DNA of 35,632 nucleotides. Source: a virus. Location: the IMG/VR virus record IMGVR_UViG_3300011114_000234, positions 1-35,632 of that record, one strand, 5' to 3'. The translations under genes and the position numbers were made by a program. The first letter of the stretch is position 1. The number at the start of each line of letters is the position of its first letter. The notes beneath the pieces are model-generated. The model was given only the letters and a program-made list of their open reading frames with translations. It had not been told where the DNA came from and made no database searches. This document shows, piece by piece, positions 2,289-30,544 of this stretch.

Positions 2289-2938
2289 ATTACATTGCCG
2301 TTTGCACGCCAGCGCGTGACCAGGTACACACCAATTACACATATTGCATGGTCAACATGGTGGCGTATCACACGCTCAACACCACTGATGCCATCAGTCT
2401 GAAACTGTTGCAGGGCACGCTGATTCAGAACCAGCGTGCTGACTTGTGCCTGGATGCGTTGCGTGAAGGCTGCACGCATATCTTGTTCATTGACTCAGAC
2501 ATGACCTTTCCCCAGGACATGATCCAGCGGCTACTGAAACATGACGTTGACCTGGTTGCGGCCAACTGCGCCAGGCGCAGAATGCCCACAGGTCCAACCG
2601 CGCAAAACTATGACGAGAACGGCAAGCGCAAACCGATCTATTCAATGCCAGAATCCACTGGTCTGGAAGAAGTTGGCAGCGTTGGCACCGGCATCATGCT
2701 GATCAAGCGCGGCGTCTTTGAGGGTATGTCAGAACCTTGGTTTGATATGCCTTGGCAGTACGACACCAGGGGCTACATGGGCGAGGACGTGTTCTTTTGC
2801 AAGAAGGCAAAAGAGCTTGGGTTCAAGGTGTATATTGACCATGACGTGAGCAAAGAGATCGGCCACATTGGCACGTTTGAATTCAGACATGAGCACACCT
2901 GGATCGTCAAAGAGGAAATGGAAAAAGAGGCAAGCTGA
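2285..2938 (+). CDS. Glycosyltransferase-like protein, GT-A fold
   Basis: A 217-residue cytosolic protein. The N-terminus begins with a beta-strand (NYIAVCTPARDQV). The segment THILFIDSDMTFP around residues 63-75 supplies the DxD motif that binds metal and nucleotide-sugar in GT-A glycosyltransferases. It is followed by VDLVAANCARR, a GSVGTGIMLIKRGVF segment typical of family-2-like enzymes, and late YMGEDVFFCKKAKELG and HIGTFEF elements that fit the acceptor side and the C-terminal His. Substrate cannot be read from sequence. A glycosyltransferase inside the head module suggests sugar modification of a virion protein or DNA, but this is speculative. Start overlaps the preceding stop (ATGA). 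A second, different GT-like protein lies at 31826-32521. Confidence 0.75.
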   Translation: MNYIAVCTPARDQVHTNYTYCMVNMVAYHTLNTTDAISLKLLQGTLIQNQRADLCLDALREGCTHILFIDSDMTFPQDMIQRLLKHDVDLVAANCARRRMPTGPTAQNYDENGKRKPIYSMPESTGLEEVGSVGTGIMLIKRGVFEGMSEPWFDMPWQYDTRGYMGEDVFFCKKAKELGFKVYIDHDVSKEIGHIGTFEFRHEHTWIVKEEMEKEAS

Positions 2939-21616: not shown

Positions 21617-21853
21617 ATGAAAACAACCGACAACCCCATCAAAGACGTGCTGGTCAAGGCCAGCGCTGCTGGCTACACAATGGCAGACGTGTGCCGGGTC
21701 GCGCAGATCGACCAGTCCCAGGTCAGTCGCTGGCTCAGTGGCCGCACCAAGCCCCTTTATGACAGCGTCAAGCGCCTCAATGACGCCACTGATGCCTTGG
21801 TAGCGGCCAGGCTTGAAGTGCTCAACAAGGCCATGGATGAGGCGCTCAAATGA
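21617..21853 (+). CDS. Cro/C1-like helix-turn-helix regulator
   Basis: A 78-residue single-domain protein. Residues about 17-45 (GYTMADVCRVAQIDQSQVSR, WLSGRTKP) form an XRE-type helix-turn-helix with the recognition helix around QSQVSRWLSG. A C-terminal helix (ARLEVLNKAMDEALK) may mediate dimerisation. There is no cleavable domain like that of CI repressors, so a Cro-like or control-protein role is more likely. It opens the plus-strand replication operon, faces the minus-strand early operon, and overlaps the next gene's start by four bases. It appears to be translated from a leaderless message. Confidence 0.85.
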   Translation: MKTTDNPIKDVLVKASAAGYTMADVCRVAQIDQSQVSRWLSGRTKPLYDSVKRLNDATDALVAARLEVLNKAMDEALK

Positions 21854-22320
21854 GGCACATTGGCATCGACCCAGGTCTGTCTGGTGCTGTGGCCATCATC
21901 TCTGATGACTCACTCAAGGTCTTTGATATGCCCACCATGACTGTGGACAGAAATGGGAAGGCAAAGCGGCAGGTCAGCGCAAATGAGCTGGCCGAACTGC
22001 TGAACCTGTACGCAGGCAAAGACTGCCATGTTTACGTTGAGCGCGTCTCAGCCATGGCCGGGCAGGGCGTGACAAGTGTCTTTTCGTTTGGCCGGTCATT
22101 CGGGATGATCGAGGGAATCTTGGCAGCGCTCAAGATGCCCGTCACCTTTGTGGCACCTGCCACTTGGGTCAAGGGTGTTGGCCGTGGCCCTGGCAAAGAT
22201 GCCAGCCGGGCCAGGGCAATGGAGCTTTTCCCCAATTACGAATACTTCTTCAAGCGCGTCAAAGATGATGGCCGTGCTGACGCTGCACTCATTGCACATT
22301 GGGGGTGTAAACATGGCTAG
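21850..22320 (+). CDS. RuvC-like Holliday-junction resolvase
   Basis: A 156-residue protein of the RNase H fold. Acidic residues line up with those of RuvC: Asp-7 in HIGIDPGLSGAVAI, Glu-64 in VYVERV, and Asp-140/Asp-144 in DDGRADAALIAHWG. The QGVTSVFSFGRSFGMIEGIL region corresponds to RuvC's DNA-binding helices. It would cut branched DNA made during recombination or concatemer processing before packaging. Length matches phage RuvC-like enzymes, slightly shorter than bacterial RuvC. ATGA overlap with the regulator; the stop lies inside the next gene. Confidence 0.9.
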   Translation: MRHIGIDPGLSGAVAIISDDSLKVFDMPTMTVDRNGKAKRQVSANELAELLNLYAGKDCHVYVERVSAMAGQGVTSVFSFGRSFGMIEGILAALKMPVTFVAPATWVKGVGRGPGKDASRARAMELFPNYEYFFKRVKDDGRADAALIAHWGCKHG

Positions 22321-23143
22321 CCCATTCATCATTGATGGCCCAACTTGCATCAGCTTTAGCGGTGGCAGGACCAGCGCATATATGCTTTGGCGGGTGCTGC
22401 AAGAGCACGGCGGGAAACTGCCAGAGGAGGCCATTGTGTGCTTTGCCAACACTGGCAAAGAGGATGAGGCCACCTTAAGGTTTGTCCAGGCCTGCTCTGA
22501 CAAATGGGGCGTTGAGATCCATTGGGTTGAGTATCGCGATGCAGACCCTGCCTTTGTGCGCGTTGACTTTGAAACCGCCAGCAGAAATGGTGAACCATTC
22601 GAGGCGCTCATTCGCAAGCGTCAGTATCTGCCCAACCCGGTGACAAGATTTTGCACGTCAGAGTTGAAGATTCGCACCATTCACAAGTACTTGAAGTCAA
22701 TTGGCTGGGATGACCATAACGAAACCATGGACTGGGTTGGCATGAGAGCTGACGAGCAAAGACGTGCCGCGAAGATTGCCGACAAGTCAAGGATTCCACT
22801 GGTGACTGCTGGCGTGACAAAAGAGACTGTTGGCGAATTCTGGCGCAATCACTCTTTCGACCTTATGCTGCCAAACAACAATGGCGTGACCATGCATGGG
22901 AACTGTGATCTTTGCTTTTTAAAGGGTGGCGCACAGGTGCTATCTCTAATTGCAGAAAAGCCAGAACGTGGTATCTGGTGGGCCAAAATGGAGGCGTTGG
23001 CGTTGGCGTTGGCGTCCAAGCCAAGCGGTGCGGTGTTTCGTTCCGACCGCCCATCTTATTCCGCAATGATGCAATTCGCATCAGAACAAATTGATATGTT
23101 TGACCCCAATGAAGAAGCCATTGCGTGCTTTTGTGGAGACTGA
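22313..23143 (+). CDS. PAPS-reductase-like PP-loop protein
   Basis: A 276-residue protein from ATG 22313, which overlaps the resolvase stop; the frame is open further upstream, but that part is a shadow of the resolvase. Residues 14-22 (SFSGGRTSA) form the PP-loop that binds nucleotide. RFCTSELKIR around Cys-114 matches the RxCTxxLK motif of phosphoadenosine-phosphosulphate reductase-like proteins. Two Cys pairs, NCDLC (198/201) and CFC near the C-terminus (272/274), could hold a metal or Fe-S cluster. Phage members of this family are common, but their reaction is unproven; sulphur transfer, nucleotide modification or assimilation are options. Position among recombination and replication genes hints at DNA-related use. 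Confidence 0.8.
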   Translation: MASPFIIDGPTCISFSGGRTSAYMLWRVLQEHGGKLPEEAIVCFANTGKEDEATLRFVQACSDKWGVEIHWVEYRDADPAFVRVDFETASRNGEPFEALIRKRQYLPNPVTRFCTSELKIRTIHKYLKSIGWDDHNETMDWVGMRADEQRRAAKIADKSRIPLVTAGVTKETVGEFWRNHSFDLMLPNNNGVTMHGNCDLCFLKGGAQVLSLIAEKPERGIWWAKMEALALALASKPSGAVFRSDRPSYSAMMQFASEQIDMFDPNEEAIACFCGD

Positions 23144-25159: not shown

Positions 25160-25273
25160 ATGGAATCAAAAGAAGAATTCTGGCAACTGCTGGTGCTCAT
25201 GTTGGCACGGCGGGTGTACGAATTAGAAGAACGGCTCAAGAAATTGGAGAAGAAATGCAAGCCGAACAAATAG
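25160..25273 (+). CDS. Possible small coiled-coil protein, 37 residues
   Basis: An ORF directly after the terminator: MESKEEFWQLLVLMLARRVY, then ELEERLKKLEKKCKPNK. Amphipathic and basic, with leucine heptads in its second half. It has no Shine-Dalgarno because the ATG follows the terminator's T-run by five bases, and it overlaps the primase start by 19 bases. Translation is uncertain. It might serve only to couple ribosomes to the primase ATG. Confidence 0.4.
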   Translation: MESKEEFWQLLVLMLARRVYELEERLKKLEKKCKPNK

Positions 25274-27348
25274 CAAAGGCGCTTGGCAACGCAAAGAGAG
25301 TTGGCAAAGGATGGTTGGCAAGTTGCCCATTGCCAGGGCATGGACAGGGCCATGGAGACAAGAACCCGAGTCTTTCCATCAGTGATGGAGATGACGGCAA
25401 ACCCCTCTTTAAGTGCCACTCTGGTTGCGATCAGCATGAAGTGTTTGCGGCCATCAGGGATTACGGGCTGCTGCCAGACATTGAGATACGTGACCCTTTG
25501 GCATCGATCAAGCCACTGCCTGCGCTCCAGGCACCAGTCCTTGAGCATGAGTGGGTTTATGTTGACGAGTATGGGGACCCGCTGTTTGTCAAGCAGAGAT
25601 TTAAGACCAGCACGGCCAAGGGTAAAGATTACAAGCTCATGCGCTGCGTCAAACAGCCAGATGGAACCCATGCCAGGTTTCCAGGGTTCAAAGACACGCG
25701 CCTGGTGCCCTATCGATTCCCCGAACTGCTGAACGCAAAGGCTGCGGGAAGGACCATCTTTTTGACCGAAGGCGAGAAGGCAGCCGATGCCTTGGTATCA
25801 ATTGGAGTCATTGCCACAAGTGCTCATGCGGGATCAGGGTCATGGCCCGAGGAGATCACCCAGTATTTTGCTGGGGCAGTTGTCATCATGGTCCCAGACA
25901 ACGACCTGGCGGGTTGGAAGTACGCCCACAAGGTGGCCGCAGCCTTGGTCCCGGTGGTGAAGTCCTTGAGGATCTTGGACCTGCCAGTTGAAGCGGCAAC
26001 AGATGATGCCTGGGAATGGGTCAACGTCTTGGGCGGCACCAGGCAAGAACTGGTCGAATTGGCAAAGGTCAGCCCATTGGTGACCTCGCAAGATGATGTA
26101 ACGATCCCGGCAAGATTGGTGGCGGCACCGCAAAGCTCAGTTGCAGAACCATTTGCCGAATCTGCCGAACAGGTTGCAGAACCCAAAACCCAGGAACCTT
26201 ACAAACCCTTCAAGATCGAGTCCTGGCAGTCAGTCAAGGATGAACCCGTCAACTGGTTAATCGAAGGCGTGATCCCTGAGAAGTCTTTTGTGGCCCTGTA
26301 TGGGCCGCCAGCGTCATTCAAGTCATTCATTGCCATGGACATTGCCGAGTGCATCGCATCAGGCCGTGACTGGTTGGGAAACAAGATCAACGGCACCGGG
26401 CCAGTCCTATACATTGCCGGCGAAGGTCATGGCGGTATCGGTGCCAGGATTGCAGCCATCAAGCAGCACCACAACACGCCAGATGATGCACAGGTGTACG
26501 TTGTGCGCTCCCAGATCAACCTCAGATCAAGCGTTGATGATTTCTTGGCGCTCATTTCGGCCATCGATGAGCTGGTCAAGGAACTGGGTGTCGACCTGCG
26601 CATGATCATCATCGATACCCTGGCCAGAGCATTTGGCGGGGGAAATGAGAACTCGAGTGATGACATGGGTGCCTTCATCCAGGCCACGGGAAAGATCCAA
26701 AACAGGTACAGGTGCTCACTTATGCTGCTGCACCACGCTGGCAAGGACACGACAAAAGGACTGCGTGGGCACTCCAGTCTGCTGGGTGCCGTGGACACGC
26801 AAATGGAGATCATGCGGTTTCCAGAAACCACCAAAGGCTTGATCCTCATGTCCAAGCAAAAGGACGGTGAGGACGGTCAGAGGTACGGGTTTGAGGCCAT
26901 CACGGTGGACATTGACAGGTCAGATCTGGGCCTGGAGAACGGCTCCAGCCTGGTCATTGAGGCGTCAGAGGTTGGCGAGATGAGGTCAGCAGACGCAGAA
27001 AATAAGCCAGAAAAAGGCAAAGCAATTGGCGCAAAACAGAAGATTGCTGAGAAGTCACTAATTGTTGCAATTAAAACCTTTGGCTCCATTATGGACACGC
27101 CAGAGGGACGCAAAAACACCATCAGTTTGGAGCAGTGGAAGGCCGAATTCACGGCCATGATCGGGTCAGATGTGACCTCAAACCAGCTCGCAACGTACTG
27201 GGGAAGGGCCAAGGATCACGTCATAAAGAGTGGATTCGGGACCATCAGGAACAGCAGCGTTTGGGCAAACCGTAAGGACGTGACCACTGGTTTTGAGGCA
27301 GAGGCGCTGCTGAAAGCCGGGAAACTGGCTGCGTTGGTTGATGAATGA
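25255..27348 (+). CDS. Primase-helicase, zinc ribbon, TOPRIM and RecA-like helicase
   Basis: A 697-residue fused replication protein. An N-terminal zinc ribbon (Cys-24, His-29, Cys-54, Cys-58; KCHSGCDQHE) resembles CHC2 primases. A TOPRIM domain follows, about 165-245 (TIFLTEGEKAADALVSIG, with Glu, and VVIMVPDNDLAGWKYAHKVA with DxD). The C-terminal half is a RecA/RepA-like ATPase: Walker A variant GPPASFKS near residues 350-358 and Walker B MIIIDTLARAF near 450-460, then LLHHAGKDTTKGLRGHS, typical of RepA-like hexameric helicases. It makes primers and unwinds DNA at the fork. GGAG lies five to six bases before the ATG. No DNA polymerase gene is nearby; probably the host polymerase is used. 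Confidence 0.92.
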   Translation: MQAEQIAKALGNAKRVGKGWLASCPLPGHGQGHGDKNPSLSISDGDDGKPLFKCHSGCDQHEVFAAIRDYGLLPDIEIRDPLASIKPLPALQAPVLEHEWVYVDEYGDPLFVKQRFKTSTAKGKDYKLMRCVKQPDGTHARFPGFKDTRLVPYRFPELLNAKAAGRTIFLTEGEKAADALVSIGVIATSAHAGSGSWPEEITQYFAGAVVIMVPDNDLAGWKYAHKVAAALVPVVKSLRILDLPVEAATDDAWEWVNVLGGTRQELVELAKVSPLVTSQDDVTIPARLVAAPQSSVAEPFAESAEQVAEPKTQEPYKPFKIESWQSVKDEPVNWLIEGVIPEKSFVALYGPPASFKSFIAMDIAECIASGRDWLGNKINGTGPVLYIAGEGHGGIGARIAAIKQHHNTPDDAQVYVVRSQINLRSSVDDFLALISAIDELVKELGVDLRMIIIDTLARAFGGGNENSSDDMGAFIQATGKIQNRYRCSLMLLHHAGKDTTKGLRGHSSLLGAVDTQMEIMRFPETTKGLILMSKQKDGEDGQRYGFEAITVDIDRSDLGLENGSSLVIEASEVGEMRSADAENKPEKGKAIGAKQKIAEKSLIVAIKTFGSIMDTPEGRKNTISLEQWKAEFTAMIGSDVTSNQLATYWGRAKDHVIKSGFGTIRNSSVWANRKDVTTGFEAEALLKAGKLAALVDE

Positions 27349-27374
27349 GTCATGCGAACGTTGACAATGTCATC

Positions 27375-27515
27375 CACCACAAACACCACAAACACCACAG
27401 ATGTGGTGAGGTTGTGGTGCCACATTCACCACAAACACCACAAACACCCCTATAAGGGGTTGTTTGTGGTGTGGTGTGTGGTGTGGTGTTTTGTTGGTGT
27501 AGTGTTTAGCAAATT
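27375..27515. repeat. Direct and inverted CACCACAAA repeat array, candidate origin
   Basis: The gap between the primase-helicase and the next gene is filled by one motif in both orientations. CACCACAAA occurs in tandem at 27375 and 27384 and again at 27427 and 27436; the pair is part of a 22-bp exact direct repeat (27375-27396 and 27427-27448). Inverted pairs: CACCACA/TGTGGTG (27393-27408), TTGTGGTG/CACCACAA (27412-27434) and a 16-bp hairpin at 27436-27471 with arms CACCACAAACA/TGTTTGTGGTG plus CCCCT/AGGGG around ATA. More GTGGTG units follow to about 27515. Iterons beside a helicase-primase gene fit a replication origin. Confidence 0.8.
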
Positions 27516-27542: not shown

Positions 27543-28241
27543 ATGAGCGCAAAACAGGGTCAGGTGGGTCAGGGCAAAAGTCGGATGCCAGGTCGTGGGG
27601 TCAAGCCAGATTTCCCGGCGACCGATTTTGAGATCAGGCAGGCATCATGGTTGGCTGAAATTGAGCGCGTTAAGGTGGATCAGGATCGAAAATGGGGTAC
27701 TGATAGATTGTGTACTTTAGTTGATCTAGGGTTTCGGGAGAAATTCTGGCAGCAACAGCAAAGGGTTTGGCAGGCTTGTCAGGCCAGGGACAGTGAAAGG
27801 CTTGAGAAGTCAGCAGCAGGCATGGTCAGGGCGTATCAGGCGCTCGAGGCCTGGGCAGTCCAGCACGCAGTGCCTGTGCGGCCTGCCGTGGGCGCGGTTG
27901 AGCACGTTGGCAAAGATGGGAAACTGATGGTGGTGGTCGCAACCAAGCAAGATGCGGTCTGGTATCGCGAGAACCGTCCAGACGTTGAAGGCCAGCACGT
28001 TTGGTCCATGGAGGAGATCGAGCTGCTGATTGAGGCTGAGATCAACCAGGCAGTGGTCGAGGCAAAGATCAGGTACGCTAGGTTTGACCCGGTGGTGGTC
28101 AATGTGGAGAAGTTGGGGGGTGAGACGGGCTTTGATGATTTTGTCAATGACCTGGATCTGTCAGCGCCAACGAAGGCACCTAAAATGTTTGACAGCAAAA
28201 CAGCGGAGAAATTCAAGCATGGACAAAATCAGGCGATTTAA
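27543..28241 (+). CDS. Unknown protein between the repeat array and terminase
   Basis: A 232-residue protein with GGAGG about eleven bases before the ATG. The first 25 residues are Gly/Lys/Arg-rich and flexible (KQGQVGQGKSRMPGRGVKPD). The middle (ASWLAEIERVKVDQDRKWGT, LGFREKFWQQQQRVWQACQA) is helical, then comes a beta segment (HVGKDGKLMVVVATKQDAVW) and an acidic helix (WSMEEIELLIEAEINQAVVE). No catalytic motif. I do not recognise the family. Next to the candidate origin and before terS, it might be an origin-binding or packaging accessory protein. No evidence beyond position. Confidence 0.75.
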   Translation: MSAKQGQVGQGKSRMPGRGVKPDFPATDFEIRQASWLAEIERVKVDQDRKWGTDRLCTLVDLGFREKFWQQQQRVWQACQARDSERLEKSAAGMVRAYQALEAWAVQHAVPVRPAVGAVEHVGKDGKLMVVVATKQDAVWYRENRPDVEGQHVWSMEEIELLIEAEINQAVVEAKIRYARFDPVVVNVEKLGGETGFDDFVNDLDLSAPTKAPKMFDSKTAEKFKHGQNQAI

Positions 28242-28309: not shown

Positions 28310-28741
28310 ATGGCTGGAAGACCTAAGATGCGCCGCGATCTCGAGCTGCTCGAGGATTTGCCCGAGGATATGGTCTTTGCCATGTTTGAGGCAGGCAAGC
28401 CGATCAGCACAATCTGCTATGAGCTTGGAATCGGGCGCAGGGCGCTTGAGAAGTGGATCGAGGAAAATGACCGCGATGATATGATTGCGCGTGCGCGCGC
28501 CAAGGCCGCCGATGAGCTTGCGTGCGAGACGCTGGCGATAGCGGACAGCGCCGATCCGGAGCACGCCGCGCACGCTCGCGTCCGCATCCAGACGCGCCAG
28601 TGGCTGGCTGAGAAGTGGAAACCAAGCGTTTATGGCACCAAACAGGCAGCGATCCAGGTCAACATTCACTCGATGCGCATGGACGCGCTGCGCCATGCCG
28701 AGGTCATCGAGGCCGAGTTATCCACAGGCGAAGGCAAATAA
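28310..28741 (+). CDS. Terminase small subunit-like protein
   Basis: A 143-residue protein. The N-terminal helix-turn-helix (FEAGKPISTICYELGIGRRA, LEKWIEEN) is typical of DNA-recognition domains in phage small terminases. The middle is helical (RARAKAADELACETLAIADS, RVRIQTRQWLAEKWKP), ending with a charged tail. It would recognise the packaging site and regulate the large subunit. AAGGGG precedes the ATG. Position 318 bases upstream of terL supports the call. A DnaA box (28718-28726) lies inside its 3' end, so gene and origin-like element overlap. Confidence 0.8.
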   Translation: MAGRPKMRRDLELLEDLPEDMVFAMFEAGKPISTICYELGIGRRALEKWIEENDRDDMIARARAKAADELACETLAIADSADPEHAAHARVRIQTRQWLAEKWKPSVYGTKQAAIQVNIHSMRMDALRHAEVIEAELSTGEGK

Positions 28742-28803
28742 GTGACAACTTATCCACAGATCAGCACTGGTTGCCTGTGGATAACTGTCATTTCTGTGCA
28801 TAA
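28718..28803. promoter_or_regulatory. Cluster of four perfect DnaA boxes, candidate origin
   Basis: TTATCCACA at 28718-28726 and 28750-28758 (plus), and its complement TGTGGATAA at 28776-28784 and TGTGCATAA at 28795-28803 (minus), all fit the consensus TTATNCACA exactly. Boxes 2 and 3 form a 10-bp inverted repeat with a 15-base loop. Downstream (28820-28870) is A/T-rich, with a GTAACGAT direct repeat at 28845 and 28863. Four boxes in 86 bases is the density of bacterial and plasmid origins that use host DnaA. Confidence 0.8.
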
Positions 28804-29059
28804 CTGCCAGAGCACGCATGGAATAACTTAACATAATGGACAATGTAACGATTAGGCTTTTGGTAACGATCAGCAGATTCCAGCATCCATGCCGCATTGC
28901 ACGCAAGCAGTCACTAACCAGCAATTCACAGGCGCGTGCAAGTTGCGCACAGGCTGCTGGCCGCGGTGGCGCTGACCCTGGCCAGCCTGGCCGCGCCGAA
29001 CCCCCCCTTCGCGCTCGCGGCGGGGGCAGGCTGACGCAGCACCTTGAGAAACACCGACC
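28742..29059. other. Intergenic region between terS and terL with GC-rich island
   Basis: No convincing gene in 318 bases. The left half holds three of the DnaA boxes and an A/T-rich stretch. The right half (about 28930-29040) is very GC-rich, with a run of seven C, a GGGGG run, and the inverted pair GCCGCG/CGCGGC. One frame here (GTG 28936 to stop 29034) reads like a signal peptide (RLLAAVALTLASLAA) but has no binding site. Another frame (28836-29063) ends in an ATGA overlap with terL but looks random. The region is a candidate packaging (cos or pac) site. Confidence 0.5.
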
Positions 29060-30544
29060 ATGACCCACCCCCCTACCCCAACCCCCATCGCGCCCAGCGT
29101 CCCAAAAAAAATTAAAAAAATTGAGACAACGCTCGACCCAAACCAGAACCCGTTTGTCGAATTCGTAAGACTCTACAAGAACAACCCTGTAAGGTTTGTG
29201 CAAGAAGTGCTGGGCGTCACGCCTGACCCGTGGCAGGCTGAATTTCTGATGCACATTGCCAAGGGCAACCGCCGCATCTCTGTCAGGTCTGGACACGGCG
29301 TTGGCAAATCAACCGCTGGCGCTTGGGCCATGCTTTGGTATTTGCACTTACGGTTCCCGGTCAAGATTGTGGTCACGGCCCCCACCAGCAGCCAGTTGTA
29401 TGACGCCTTGTTTGCGGAACTCAAGCGCTGGATCAAGGCCATGCCGCAGCTCTTGCAGGATCAGCTCGAGGTCAAACAAGACCGCATCGAGGTCAAGGAT
29501 GCCGCCACCGAGGCCTTCATTTCAGCGAGAACATCCAGAGCCGAGCAGCCCGAGGCCTTGCAAGGCGTGCACAGCGACAACGTGATGCTGGTGGGAGATG
29601 AGGCATCGGGTATTCCAGAACAGGTATTCGAGGCCGCTGGTGGCTCCATGTCTGGACACAATGCTGTCACCTTGCTGCTGGGCAACCCGGTGCGCAGCTC
29701 AGGATTTTTCTACGACACCCACAACAGACTTGCTGATGACTGGGTGACTATGAAGGTAGCGTGCGCTGACTCACCTCAAGTCAGCGAGGCCTACATTGAG
29801 GAGATGAAGGCGCGTTACAGTGAAGAGTCCAATGCTTACCGCATTCGCGTCTTGGGTGAATTCCCGCGCAGTGACGATGACACGGTGATCCCCATGGAGT
29901 TGCTGGAGATGGCCTCCAATCGGGATGTTGAGGCGAGTCAGCACGCCAGGATGGTGTGGGGCTTGGACGTTGCCAGGTTTGGTTCTGATAAGTCAGCCTT
30001 GTGTAAGAGGCAGGGCAATGCTGTCACTGAACCCATCAGGACGTGGAAGAACTTGGATTTGATGCAACTCACGGGTGCCATTGTGGCTGAGTGGGAAGTC
30101 TTGATGCCAAGCGCCAGGCCGCAAGAGATCTTGGTTGACTCGATTGGTTTGGGCGCTGGGGTTGTTGACCGGCTGCGGGAGTTGGGGTTACCGGCTCGCG
30201 GGATCAATGTGGCCGAGAGTCCTGCCATGGGCAATACTTACAGGAATCTGAAAGCTGAACTCTGGCACAAGGCCAAGGCTTGGCTTGAGGCGCGGGATTG
30301 TCGGATGCCCAAAGATGAGGCGTTGATCGCTGAGTTGGCCACAGTGCGGTATTCGTTCACGTCCAGCGGCAAGATCCAGATTGAGGGCAAAGACGAGATC
30401 AGAAAGCGCGGCCTGCCATCCCCTGACCGGGCAGATGCGTTTTGTTTGACCTTTGCGTCTGACGCCGTTGTGGGGATGTACGGGTCGGCTGGGTCTGCCA
30501 AGTGGTCGCAGCCTTTGCGCCGCAACCTGCCAAGGGTTGCATAA
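29060..30544 (+). CDS. terL: Terminase large subunit, ATPase and nuclease
   Basis: A 494-residue motor protein that packages DNA into the prohead. The N-terminal ATPase has Walker A SGHGVGKSTAGAW (about residues 76-88), a following VVTAPTSSQLYDALF segment, and Walker B VMLVGDEASGIP (about 175-186). The C-terminal RNase H-like nuclease has its acidic residues in WGLDVARFGSDKSA (about 302), ILVDSIGLGAGVVDRL (about 359) and PDRADAFCLTFA (about 457). Length is typical. The first 35 residues are Pro/Lys-rich and probably flexible. It is followed by a structured intergenic region, then small genes and the portal. The ATG binding site is weak. Confidence 0.95.
   Translation: MTHPPTPTPIAPSVPKKIKKIETTLDPNQNPFVEFVRLYKNNPVRFVQEVLGVTPDPWQAEFLMHIAKGNRRISVRSGHGVGKSTAGAWAMLWYLHLRFPVKIVVTAPTSSQLYDALFAELKRWIKAMPQLLQDQLEVKQDRIEVKDAATEAFISARTSRAEQPEALQGVHSDNVMLVGDEASGIPEQVFEAAGGSMSGHNAVTLLLGNPVRSSGFFYDTHNRLADDWVTMKVACADSPQVSEAYIEEMKARYSEESNAYRIRVLGEFPRSDDDTVIPMELLEMASNRDVEASQHARMVWGLDVARFGSDKSALCKRQGNAVTEPIRTWKNLDLMQLTGAIVAEWEVLMPSARPQEILVDSIGLGAGVVDRLRELGLPARGINVAESPAMGNTYRNLKAELWHKAKAWLEARDCRMPKDEALIAELATVRYSFTSSGKIQIEGKDEIRKRGLPSPDRADAFCLTFASDAVVGMYGSAGSAKWSQPLRRNLPRVA

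Follow-up and report, generated by a model that had tools for sequence, protein, structure and literature searches.

Among the closest described counterparts of the locus analysed here are the recombination sites cer of ColE1, which works with ArgR and PepA, and psi of pSC101, which works with ArcA and PepA. Both have accessory sites of roughly 100–200 bp by their core, and in both these accessory sequences are found on the XerC side. In phage P1, the loxP-Cre recombination site is near the packaging start and serves cyclisation as well as dimer resolution. Chromosomal dif sites have been tabulated for proteobacteria, the dif of Rhodoferax ferrireducens being printed as ACTTGATACGATGTATATTATGTTAAGT in Table 1 of Carnoy and Roten 2009 (PMC2731167). 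PMC5357621 and PMC9765430 deal with IMEX sites, and a figure legend of the former also names cer and psi.

Here, we analyse a stretch of phage DNA of 35,632 bp, which we call the window and always take at its full length. The assembly is circular, its two ends overlapping exactly over 127 bp, and its phage genes include portal, scaffold, capsid, terS, terL and a RepA-like primase-helicase. The 232-aa protein encoded upstream of terS (Table 1) matches no PHROG or Pfam family. A phosphoadenosine phosphosulfate reductase-like gene (phrog_424) is found at 22148–23143. Our main reading, to which we give a probability of roughly 0.5, is that the DnaA boxes at the terS-terL boundary would form the upstream half of a composite site for host factors, the other half being a host-XerCD site, with DnaA as an accessory protein.

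Table 1. Positions of the features discussed in the text, in window coordinates
Feature	Position	Strand	Remarks
Primase-helicase (RepA-like, AAA_25)	25255..27348	+	profile matches
Iteron array	27362..27490		between primase-helicase and 232-aa gene
232-aa protein	27543..28241	+	candidate initiator by position alone; adjoins iterons
terS, terminase small subunit	28310..28741	+	phrog_1482, Sf6_terminase
DnaA box 1	28718..28726	+	TTATCCACA; slot -110; inside terS codons L-S-T (TTA TCC ACA)
DnaA box 2	28750..28758	+	TTATCCACA; slot -78
DnaA box 3	28776..28784	-	TTATCCACA; slot -52
DnaA box 4	28795..28803	-	TTATGCACA; slot -33
Weak-duplex AT-rich stretch	28821..28860		overlies dif-like site
XerD-arm-like half site	28826..28836	-	bottom strand TTATGTTAAGT; 18.7 bits
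6-bp central region	28837..28842		TGGACA, between the two arms
XerC-arm-like half site	28843..28853	-	top strand ATGTAACGATT, degenerate; -7.0 bits
G+C-rich inverted repeat	28983..29033		C-run and G-run, before terL; found in aligned relatives
terL, terminase large subunit	29060..30544	+	phrog_2, phrog_5902

DnaA boxes at the terS-terL boundary

The initial annotation reported four perfect DnaA boxes, two per strand within 86 bases, and all of them are exactly where it had put them. Beyond these four, TTATNCACA does not occur anywhere in the 35,632-bp record. Simulated genomes (300 first-order Markov runs) contain a mean of 0.79 such sites each, with a maximum of one per 86 bp. Box 1 belongs to the 3' end of terS, and boxes 2–4 occupy the terS-terL gap.

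To follow the boxes among relatives, we used public viral contigs, taking the best 80 and the best 49 of the matches listed. This gave 126 sequences (125 loci and the window, duplicates counted), 103 of which have terS followed by terL. Each gap was taken from the final 60 bases of terS up to terL, and removal of identical gaps, including the window copies L001–L003, left 75 unique ones. A lack of conservation in relatives was one half of what the annotation had named as refuting its reading, and the boxes are in fact conserved: 73/75 unique gaps have at least one exact TTATNCACA, the exceptions being L037 and L116. The window's four box positions are all kept in 26 of the 75 (A or G allowed at position 3), and the arrangement of boxes varies from clade to clade.

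Conservation can also be read at the level of codons, given that box 1 is part of a reading frame. Among 70 terS genes (five of the 75 were dropped from this test), the codons of box 1 are TTA in 65/66, TCC in 65/68 and ACA in 69/69. TTA makes up 5.8% of the leucine codons in 26 ORFs of the window. The ACA column is the sole one with a single codon among 54 conserved terS columns; in the other columns printed, the commonest codon has a share of 0.51 to 0.99. At the fixed slots described below, the 9-mers of relatives depart from TTATCCACA mostly at position 5 (24 cases) and position 3 (19), with 14 departures at position 6 and 5 to 8 at each remaining position (counted over 59 distinct slot variants, empty slots among them). 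The DnaA box consensus leaves freedom at the positions where these 9-mers vary, so the pattern fits that of a DnaA box. Nucleotide-level conservation within terS codons, together with variation concentrated at positions 3 and 5, gives the boxes the appearance of functional DnaA sites.

A dif-like site next to the boxes

Downstream of the boxes, at 28826–28853, there is a dif-like XerCD site that the initial annotation had overlooked. We scored it with a matrix of 32 dif sites typed from the table of PMC2731167, which omits alpha- and epsilon-proteobacterial sites, Desulfotalea and a Yersinia duplicate. The site ranks first of the window's 71,210 28-mers, with 13.6 bits against 5.7 for the runner-up. 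Its XerD arm, TTATGTTAAGT, is identical to the XerD arm printed for the Rhodoferax ferrireducens dif in that table (PMC2731167). From this arm one might guess at a Comamonadaceae-like host. In a collection of 399 genomes (order of Paraburkholderia oxyphila), five have a site within two mismatches of the Rhodoferax type.

The XerD side is also what relatives share. The core TT[A/G]ACATAAT is found in 73/75 unique gaps, L036 and L041 having TAAACATAAT instead, and all 75 have the core within one mismatch. In the gap alignments, TTAACATAAT is among the most constant elements between terS and terL. The XerC arm is far less uniform, with scores of -7.0 bits in the window and -13.1 in L015, and of +8.4, +7.2 and +4.4 in L061, L280 and L116. 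As whole sites, L061 (28.2 bits) and L116 (25.0) score as the true dif sites of the matrix do (minimum 22.2), and low scores are found in L276 (7.3), L044 (7.6), L057 (10.7) and L015 (10.8). The low-scoring modules are on a par with the highest-scoring chance site in phage MW202898 (10.2 bits). In the comparison phages DSL-LC05, MW202483, MW202879 and MW202898, TT[A/G]ACATAAT is absent and the best dif scores range from 2.4 to 10.2 bits; it is thus the XerD core that marks off the modules from these four. The sequence supports a site of XerCD type, and recombination there by XerC and XerD is predicted.

The same stretch includes the first copy of a direct repeat, GTAACGAT, described in the initial annotation. 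The repeat is present as reported, with copies at 28845 and 28863, but its exact form varies in relatives: of the 75 unique gaps, 9 have GTAACGATTAG as the first copy, 13 have GTAGCGATTAG and the others have different words. In the window, the first copy of GTAACGAT falls within the XerC arm just described.

Boxes and Xer site as one module in several phage types

The association of boxes and site extends beyond the window's family. A search with the Xer-site pattern alone, in which no box was demanded, yielded at least 117 new loci, and 110 of these show two or more boxes within the upstream 250 bp. The other seven comprise three that are truncated by a contig end and four without boxes. The latter (L165, L183, L229 and L249) have the same Xer-like site, which in L165 directly follows a gene with an O-like replication match.

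Altogether, modules with two or more boxes amount to 216 unique copies in three terminase types. Against the window's TerL, that of type C is 30% identical and that of type B gives a local match only (27%); the primase-helicase of type B is 49% identical to the window's. Type D has a TerL that is 74% identical to that of B, together with a primase whose comparison with the window's gives a 27% match only. The carriers thus fall into three terminase types, with mosaic replication genes. Types E and F and the loci L266 and L282 were fetched by a pattern of box plus arm, may therefore be due to chance and are not counted as main lineages, while those of their modules with two or more boxes are included in the pooled 216. 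In six AT-rich loci (L270, L272, L273, L274, L275 and L279), an inverted pair of boxes is 7–8 bp from a TTAACATAATG arm. A plasmid search turned up nothing beyond two weak Streptomyces matches.

Loci chosen by their TerL protein provide a view in which neither part of the module was demanded. These samples hold the best 80 loci per type and hence close relatives. Among the best 80, the module is present in 55/55 B-type loci with at least 1.3 kb upstream, in 11/48 C-type loci with at least 2.7 kb upstream and, as both parts, in 3/68 D-type loci with at least 0.7 kb upstream. The remaining C-type loci comprise 25 with neither part, 7 with a box cluster only and 5 with the arm only; for type D the figures are 58, 3 and 4, respectively (Fisher p 0.012). 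L341, classed as box-only in type D, has a one-mismatch arm, TTTACATAAT, in place.

With slots numbered from the first T of TTAACATAAT (28828), the boxes fall at -110/-111, -99 to -101, -76 to -78, -57, -46 and -15 on the plus strand and at -61/-62, -52, -33 and -21 on the minus strand. These ten slots contain 607 of the 618 boxes in the 216 unique modules (a hand count from the table), with the slots set after the data had been viewed, the modules not independent of one another and some loci picked by patterns that contain a box.

The spacers tell how far such agreement could be a matter of shared sequence. Those of A and C are related (53/98 bases identical). D and A4 are unrelated (17/87), and B vs A4 (31/97) and D vs B (27/79) are near chance. 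Taking one hand-picked representative per type, 4/5 boxes of A4 and B match a D box within 1 bp and on the same strand (p ~1.5e-4), as do 2/3 of A3, 1/4 of A1 (the window's type) and 0/3 of A2. When these five types are pooled, 7/15 boxes coincide with D, a result never reached in 20,000 simulations; D had been found by a pattern demanding one box at about -34 to -64, which fixes its -57 slot only. Given the shared module sequence of A and C and the related primase-helicase of A and B, the slot agreement may in part reflect descent or transfer. Phasing at the 10.5-bp helical repeat is not significant over all slots (plus strand p 0.375, minus strand p 0.675); the A–D slots taken by themselves seem more regular at 10.5 bp, as a subset picked afterwards.

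Two roles for DnaA that leave recombination aside can be weighed against this geometry. In the first, DnaA represses or activates the transcription of terL or times packaging, in line with the position of the type A module between terS and terL. However, C-type modules are inverted with respect to terL in 11/11 cases, B-type modules are ~0.7–1.3 kb upstream of it, and the slots are keyed to the Xer arm and to no gene start. We regard this role as very improbable, and the idea of the initial annotation that DnaA is a sensor in terL transcription or packaging is disfavoured by the C-type inversion and the B-type distance. In the second, host DnaA is titrated by the boxes, which slows replication of the host, and the Xer arm is there by coincidence. 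In its favour, boxes clustered away from any Xer arm are found in Klebsiella phage FBKp16 (MW394389; L290, about 2505–2664, minus strand), where six copies of TTATCCACA are found in ~160 bp without annotated genes and with no XerD core nearby. In the modules, by contrast, there are few boxes per genome and their slots are fixed to the Xer arm, and we give titration hardly any credence.

Recombinase genes and integration

A phage with a dif-like site could use it in different ways. The tyrosine-recombinase domain PF00589 was found in 0/22 and 0/19 records of two overlapping sets, and the serine resolvase PF00239 and ParA PF13614 in 0/19, some of the records being fragments. In the set of 19, carriage of the module is established for all but three. 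In phage MW202879, a relative without the Xer core, a gene that lies between terS and terL (L320, 966–1634) is annotated as gamma-delta resolvase, which fits a resolution function at this place in that phage.

The lack of a tyrosine-recombinase domain in 22 of 22 records, together with the dif-like site, would suit a temperate phage without an integrase that integrates at the host dif through XerCD, in the manner of an IMEX, with the site as attP and the boxes in a regulatory part. The centre TGGACA and the TATACA of dif agree in their XerC-side half, only 4/28 positions differ between L116 and the Rhodoferax dif, and the window encodes an HTH_3 protein at 21617–21853. Against integration, no integrated arrangement was seen: terS is upstream of terL in 69/69 TerL-chosen loci that extend 400 bp or more in that direction, and there is no other flank. 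Moreover, the site centres differ between lineages on both halves. In the 399 genomes (order of Paraburkholderia oxyphila), the A2/B/C-type site pattern occurs in none, a pattern that misses the window's own site and fits 20/75 unique gaps. A scan of the genome collection, which picks up close relatives only, gave one TerL relative at 58%; three more distant TerL relatives in genomes match at 33–37%, and none of the four has the module or the arm. We consider an attP improbable. Since neither recombinase genes nor an integrated arrangement were seen in the records and loci covered, resolution or circularisation of free phage DNA by host XerCD is favoured over integration.

Genome ends near terL

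In phiM5, a TerL relative, a 357-bp terminal repeat adjoins terL. Among the window's relatives, 11/34 contig right ends are no more than 400 bp from the terS end, and 8/65 left ends fall in the stretch from 66 bp before the terL start to 76 bp inside the gene; right and left ends overlap. We considered a packaging terminus at terS/terL and did not retain it; the clustered contig ends may reflect genome termini or an assembly break. Of three contigs with exact end overlaps, G010 has its break inside terS, and the window and G002 have theirs elsewhere. A 69,407-bp contig (G001; L309–L311), in which the window genome and that of another, related phage are fused through a common 127-mer, is probably an assembly chimera.

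The G+C-rich inverted repeat before terL has a parallel in type D, where G-runs are found at a similar place. An RNA hairpin in this stretch was tried and rejected, its fold being no stronger than that of shuffled sequences, and an Rfam scan gave no family reaching the gathering score.

Replication origin

The initial annotation saw in this region the composition of a DnaA-dependent origin. Part of this stands. The box cluster is real, and so is the A/T-rich stretch that follows it: the weakest 40-bp duplex of 28741–28920 starts at 28821 and is at the 0.21 percentile of the genome (1.21 with 80-bp windows). On the other hand, the stretch coincides with a conserved dif-like partner site, and a better origin candidate is at hand. 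At least four copies of one 8-mer per 150 bp are found 1.4–0.3 kb upstream of terS in 65/74 relatives, against 1/58 and 3/67 in control regions, the four-copy threshold having been fixed after the relatives' repeats were viewed. These arrays are mostly ~0.95 kb upstream of terS. Their place is conserved and their sequence is not, the repeated 8-mer changing between clades, which is what iterons co-evolving with an initiator would do. The iteron array is thus the likelier origin candidate. GC skew, a check that the annotation had proposed, gives no clear origin.

Several lineages add a further component known from origins. The IHF consensus is WATCAANNNNTTR, with a chance expectation of about 0.013 per 120 bp. 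It is found, on the side of the Xer site away from the boxes, at +59 in 33/44 modules of A2/C and 15/17 of A4, at +60 in 22/34 of A3 and at +69/70 in 6/6 of B, as well as in 3/14 unclassed modules. It is absent from the window's type, A1 (0/25), and from D (0/6).

These features would also suit an oriC-like origin, at which host DnaA would bind the box cluster and open the AT-rich stretch over the Xer arm, and the Xer site would resolve replication dimers. The box cluster, the IHF consensus in most lineages and the weak duplex at 28821 all speak for it, and the module is ~0.7–1.5 kb downstream of the primase-helicase gene in the window and in examples of B and D. In addition, MW202879 has no Xer site but a pair of boxes near repA, separated by 120 bp. 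Yet the conserved 8-mer array upstream of terS competes with the module, and its end at 27500 is likewise a weak duplex; the two rank tenth and ninth in the window, with eight loci weaker. Furthermore, the weak stretch of the module coincides with sequence that scores as dif, and the phage encodes its own primase-helicase. We therefore judge an oriC-like origin unlikely, though still a serious contender.

A possible function for the module

In the composite host-factor site that we propose, host DnaA on the boxes would help to build or gate a synapse in which XerCD pairs two copies of the site on phage DNA, in the way that ArgR/PepA act at cer and ArcA/PepA at psi. Such a synapse could circularise terminally redundant incoming DNA, or turn multimers into monomers. 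The recombinase would be the host's XerCD, a phage-coded recombinase for the module not having been found. That the slots keep their distance from the XerD arm would be explained most simply by DnaA acting as an accessory. Phages that combine boxes at fixed distances with a dif look-alike suggest that both host proteins are borrowed for DNA handling. We put at somewhat under even odds the broader proposal that tailed phages with different terminases share a DnaA-accessory XerCD module, in which genome joining or separating would be gated by the initiator.

Several observations weigh against this DnaA/XerCD reading. The window has a poor XerC arm, some modules score low, and the IHF consensus is missing in A1 and D. 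There are arm-only and box-only loci, and the matches of A2 (0/3) and A1 (1/4) to the boxes of D are few. If the reading is right, DnaA would be a partner of a recombinase, a job beyond initiation and transcription, and tailed phages that encode no recombinase would use that of the host to circularise or monomerise their DNA. Coupling between the state of DnaA and recombination is directly testable, and the fixed box slots offer a ready set of mutants. In the open-access literature, as covered by titles and the starts of abstracts among the matches listed, no paper connects a phage Xer site with DnaA boxes, and DnaA is absent from the main text of PMC12195039 on Limnohabitans phages.

Comparison with known systems

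Bacterial oriC and DnaA-dependent plasmid origins resemble the module in having a box cluster, an AT-rich stretch and, in many lineages, the IHF consensus. They differ in that the AT-rich stretch of the phage holds a dif-like site and separate iterons are nearby. With proteobacterial dif sites, as given in the table of PMC2731167, the phage site shares the order of XerD arm, 6-bp centre and XerC arm, whereas its centre is TGGACA instead of TATACA, the window's XerC arm is degenerate and DnaA boxes adjoin it. The attP of IMEX such as CTXphi, VGJphi and TLCphi (PMC5357621) similarly imitates dif and belongs to phages that have no integrase of their own; the present module differs by its tailed-phage genes, its DnaA boxes and the lack of an integrated copy within the limits searched.

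P1 loxP-Cre provides a parallel of position, namely a site for site-specific recombination near the start of packaging. P1 encodes Cre, however, whereas the phage module would use a recombinase of the host. The likeness to cer and psi is one of architecture: an XerCD core beside sites for host DNA-binding proteins on extrachromosomal DNA, with binding in the phage predicted from sequence. Here DnaA boxes take the place of the ArgR or ArcA sites, their position on the XerD side of the core counts against the parallel, and the carrier is a tailed phage.
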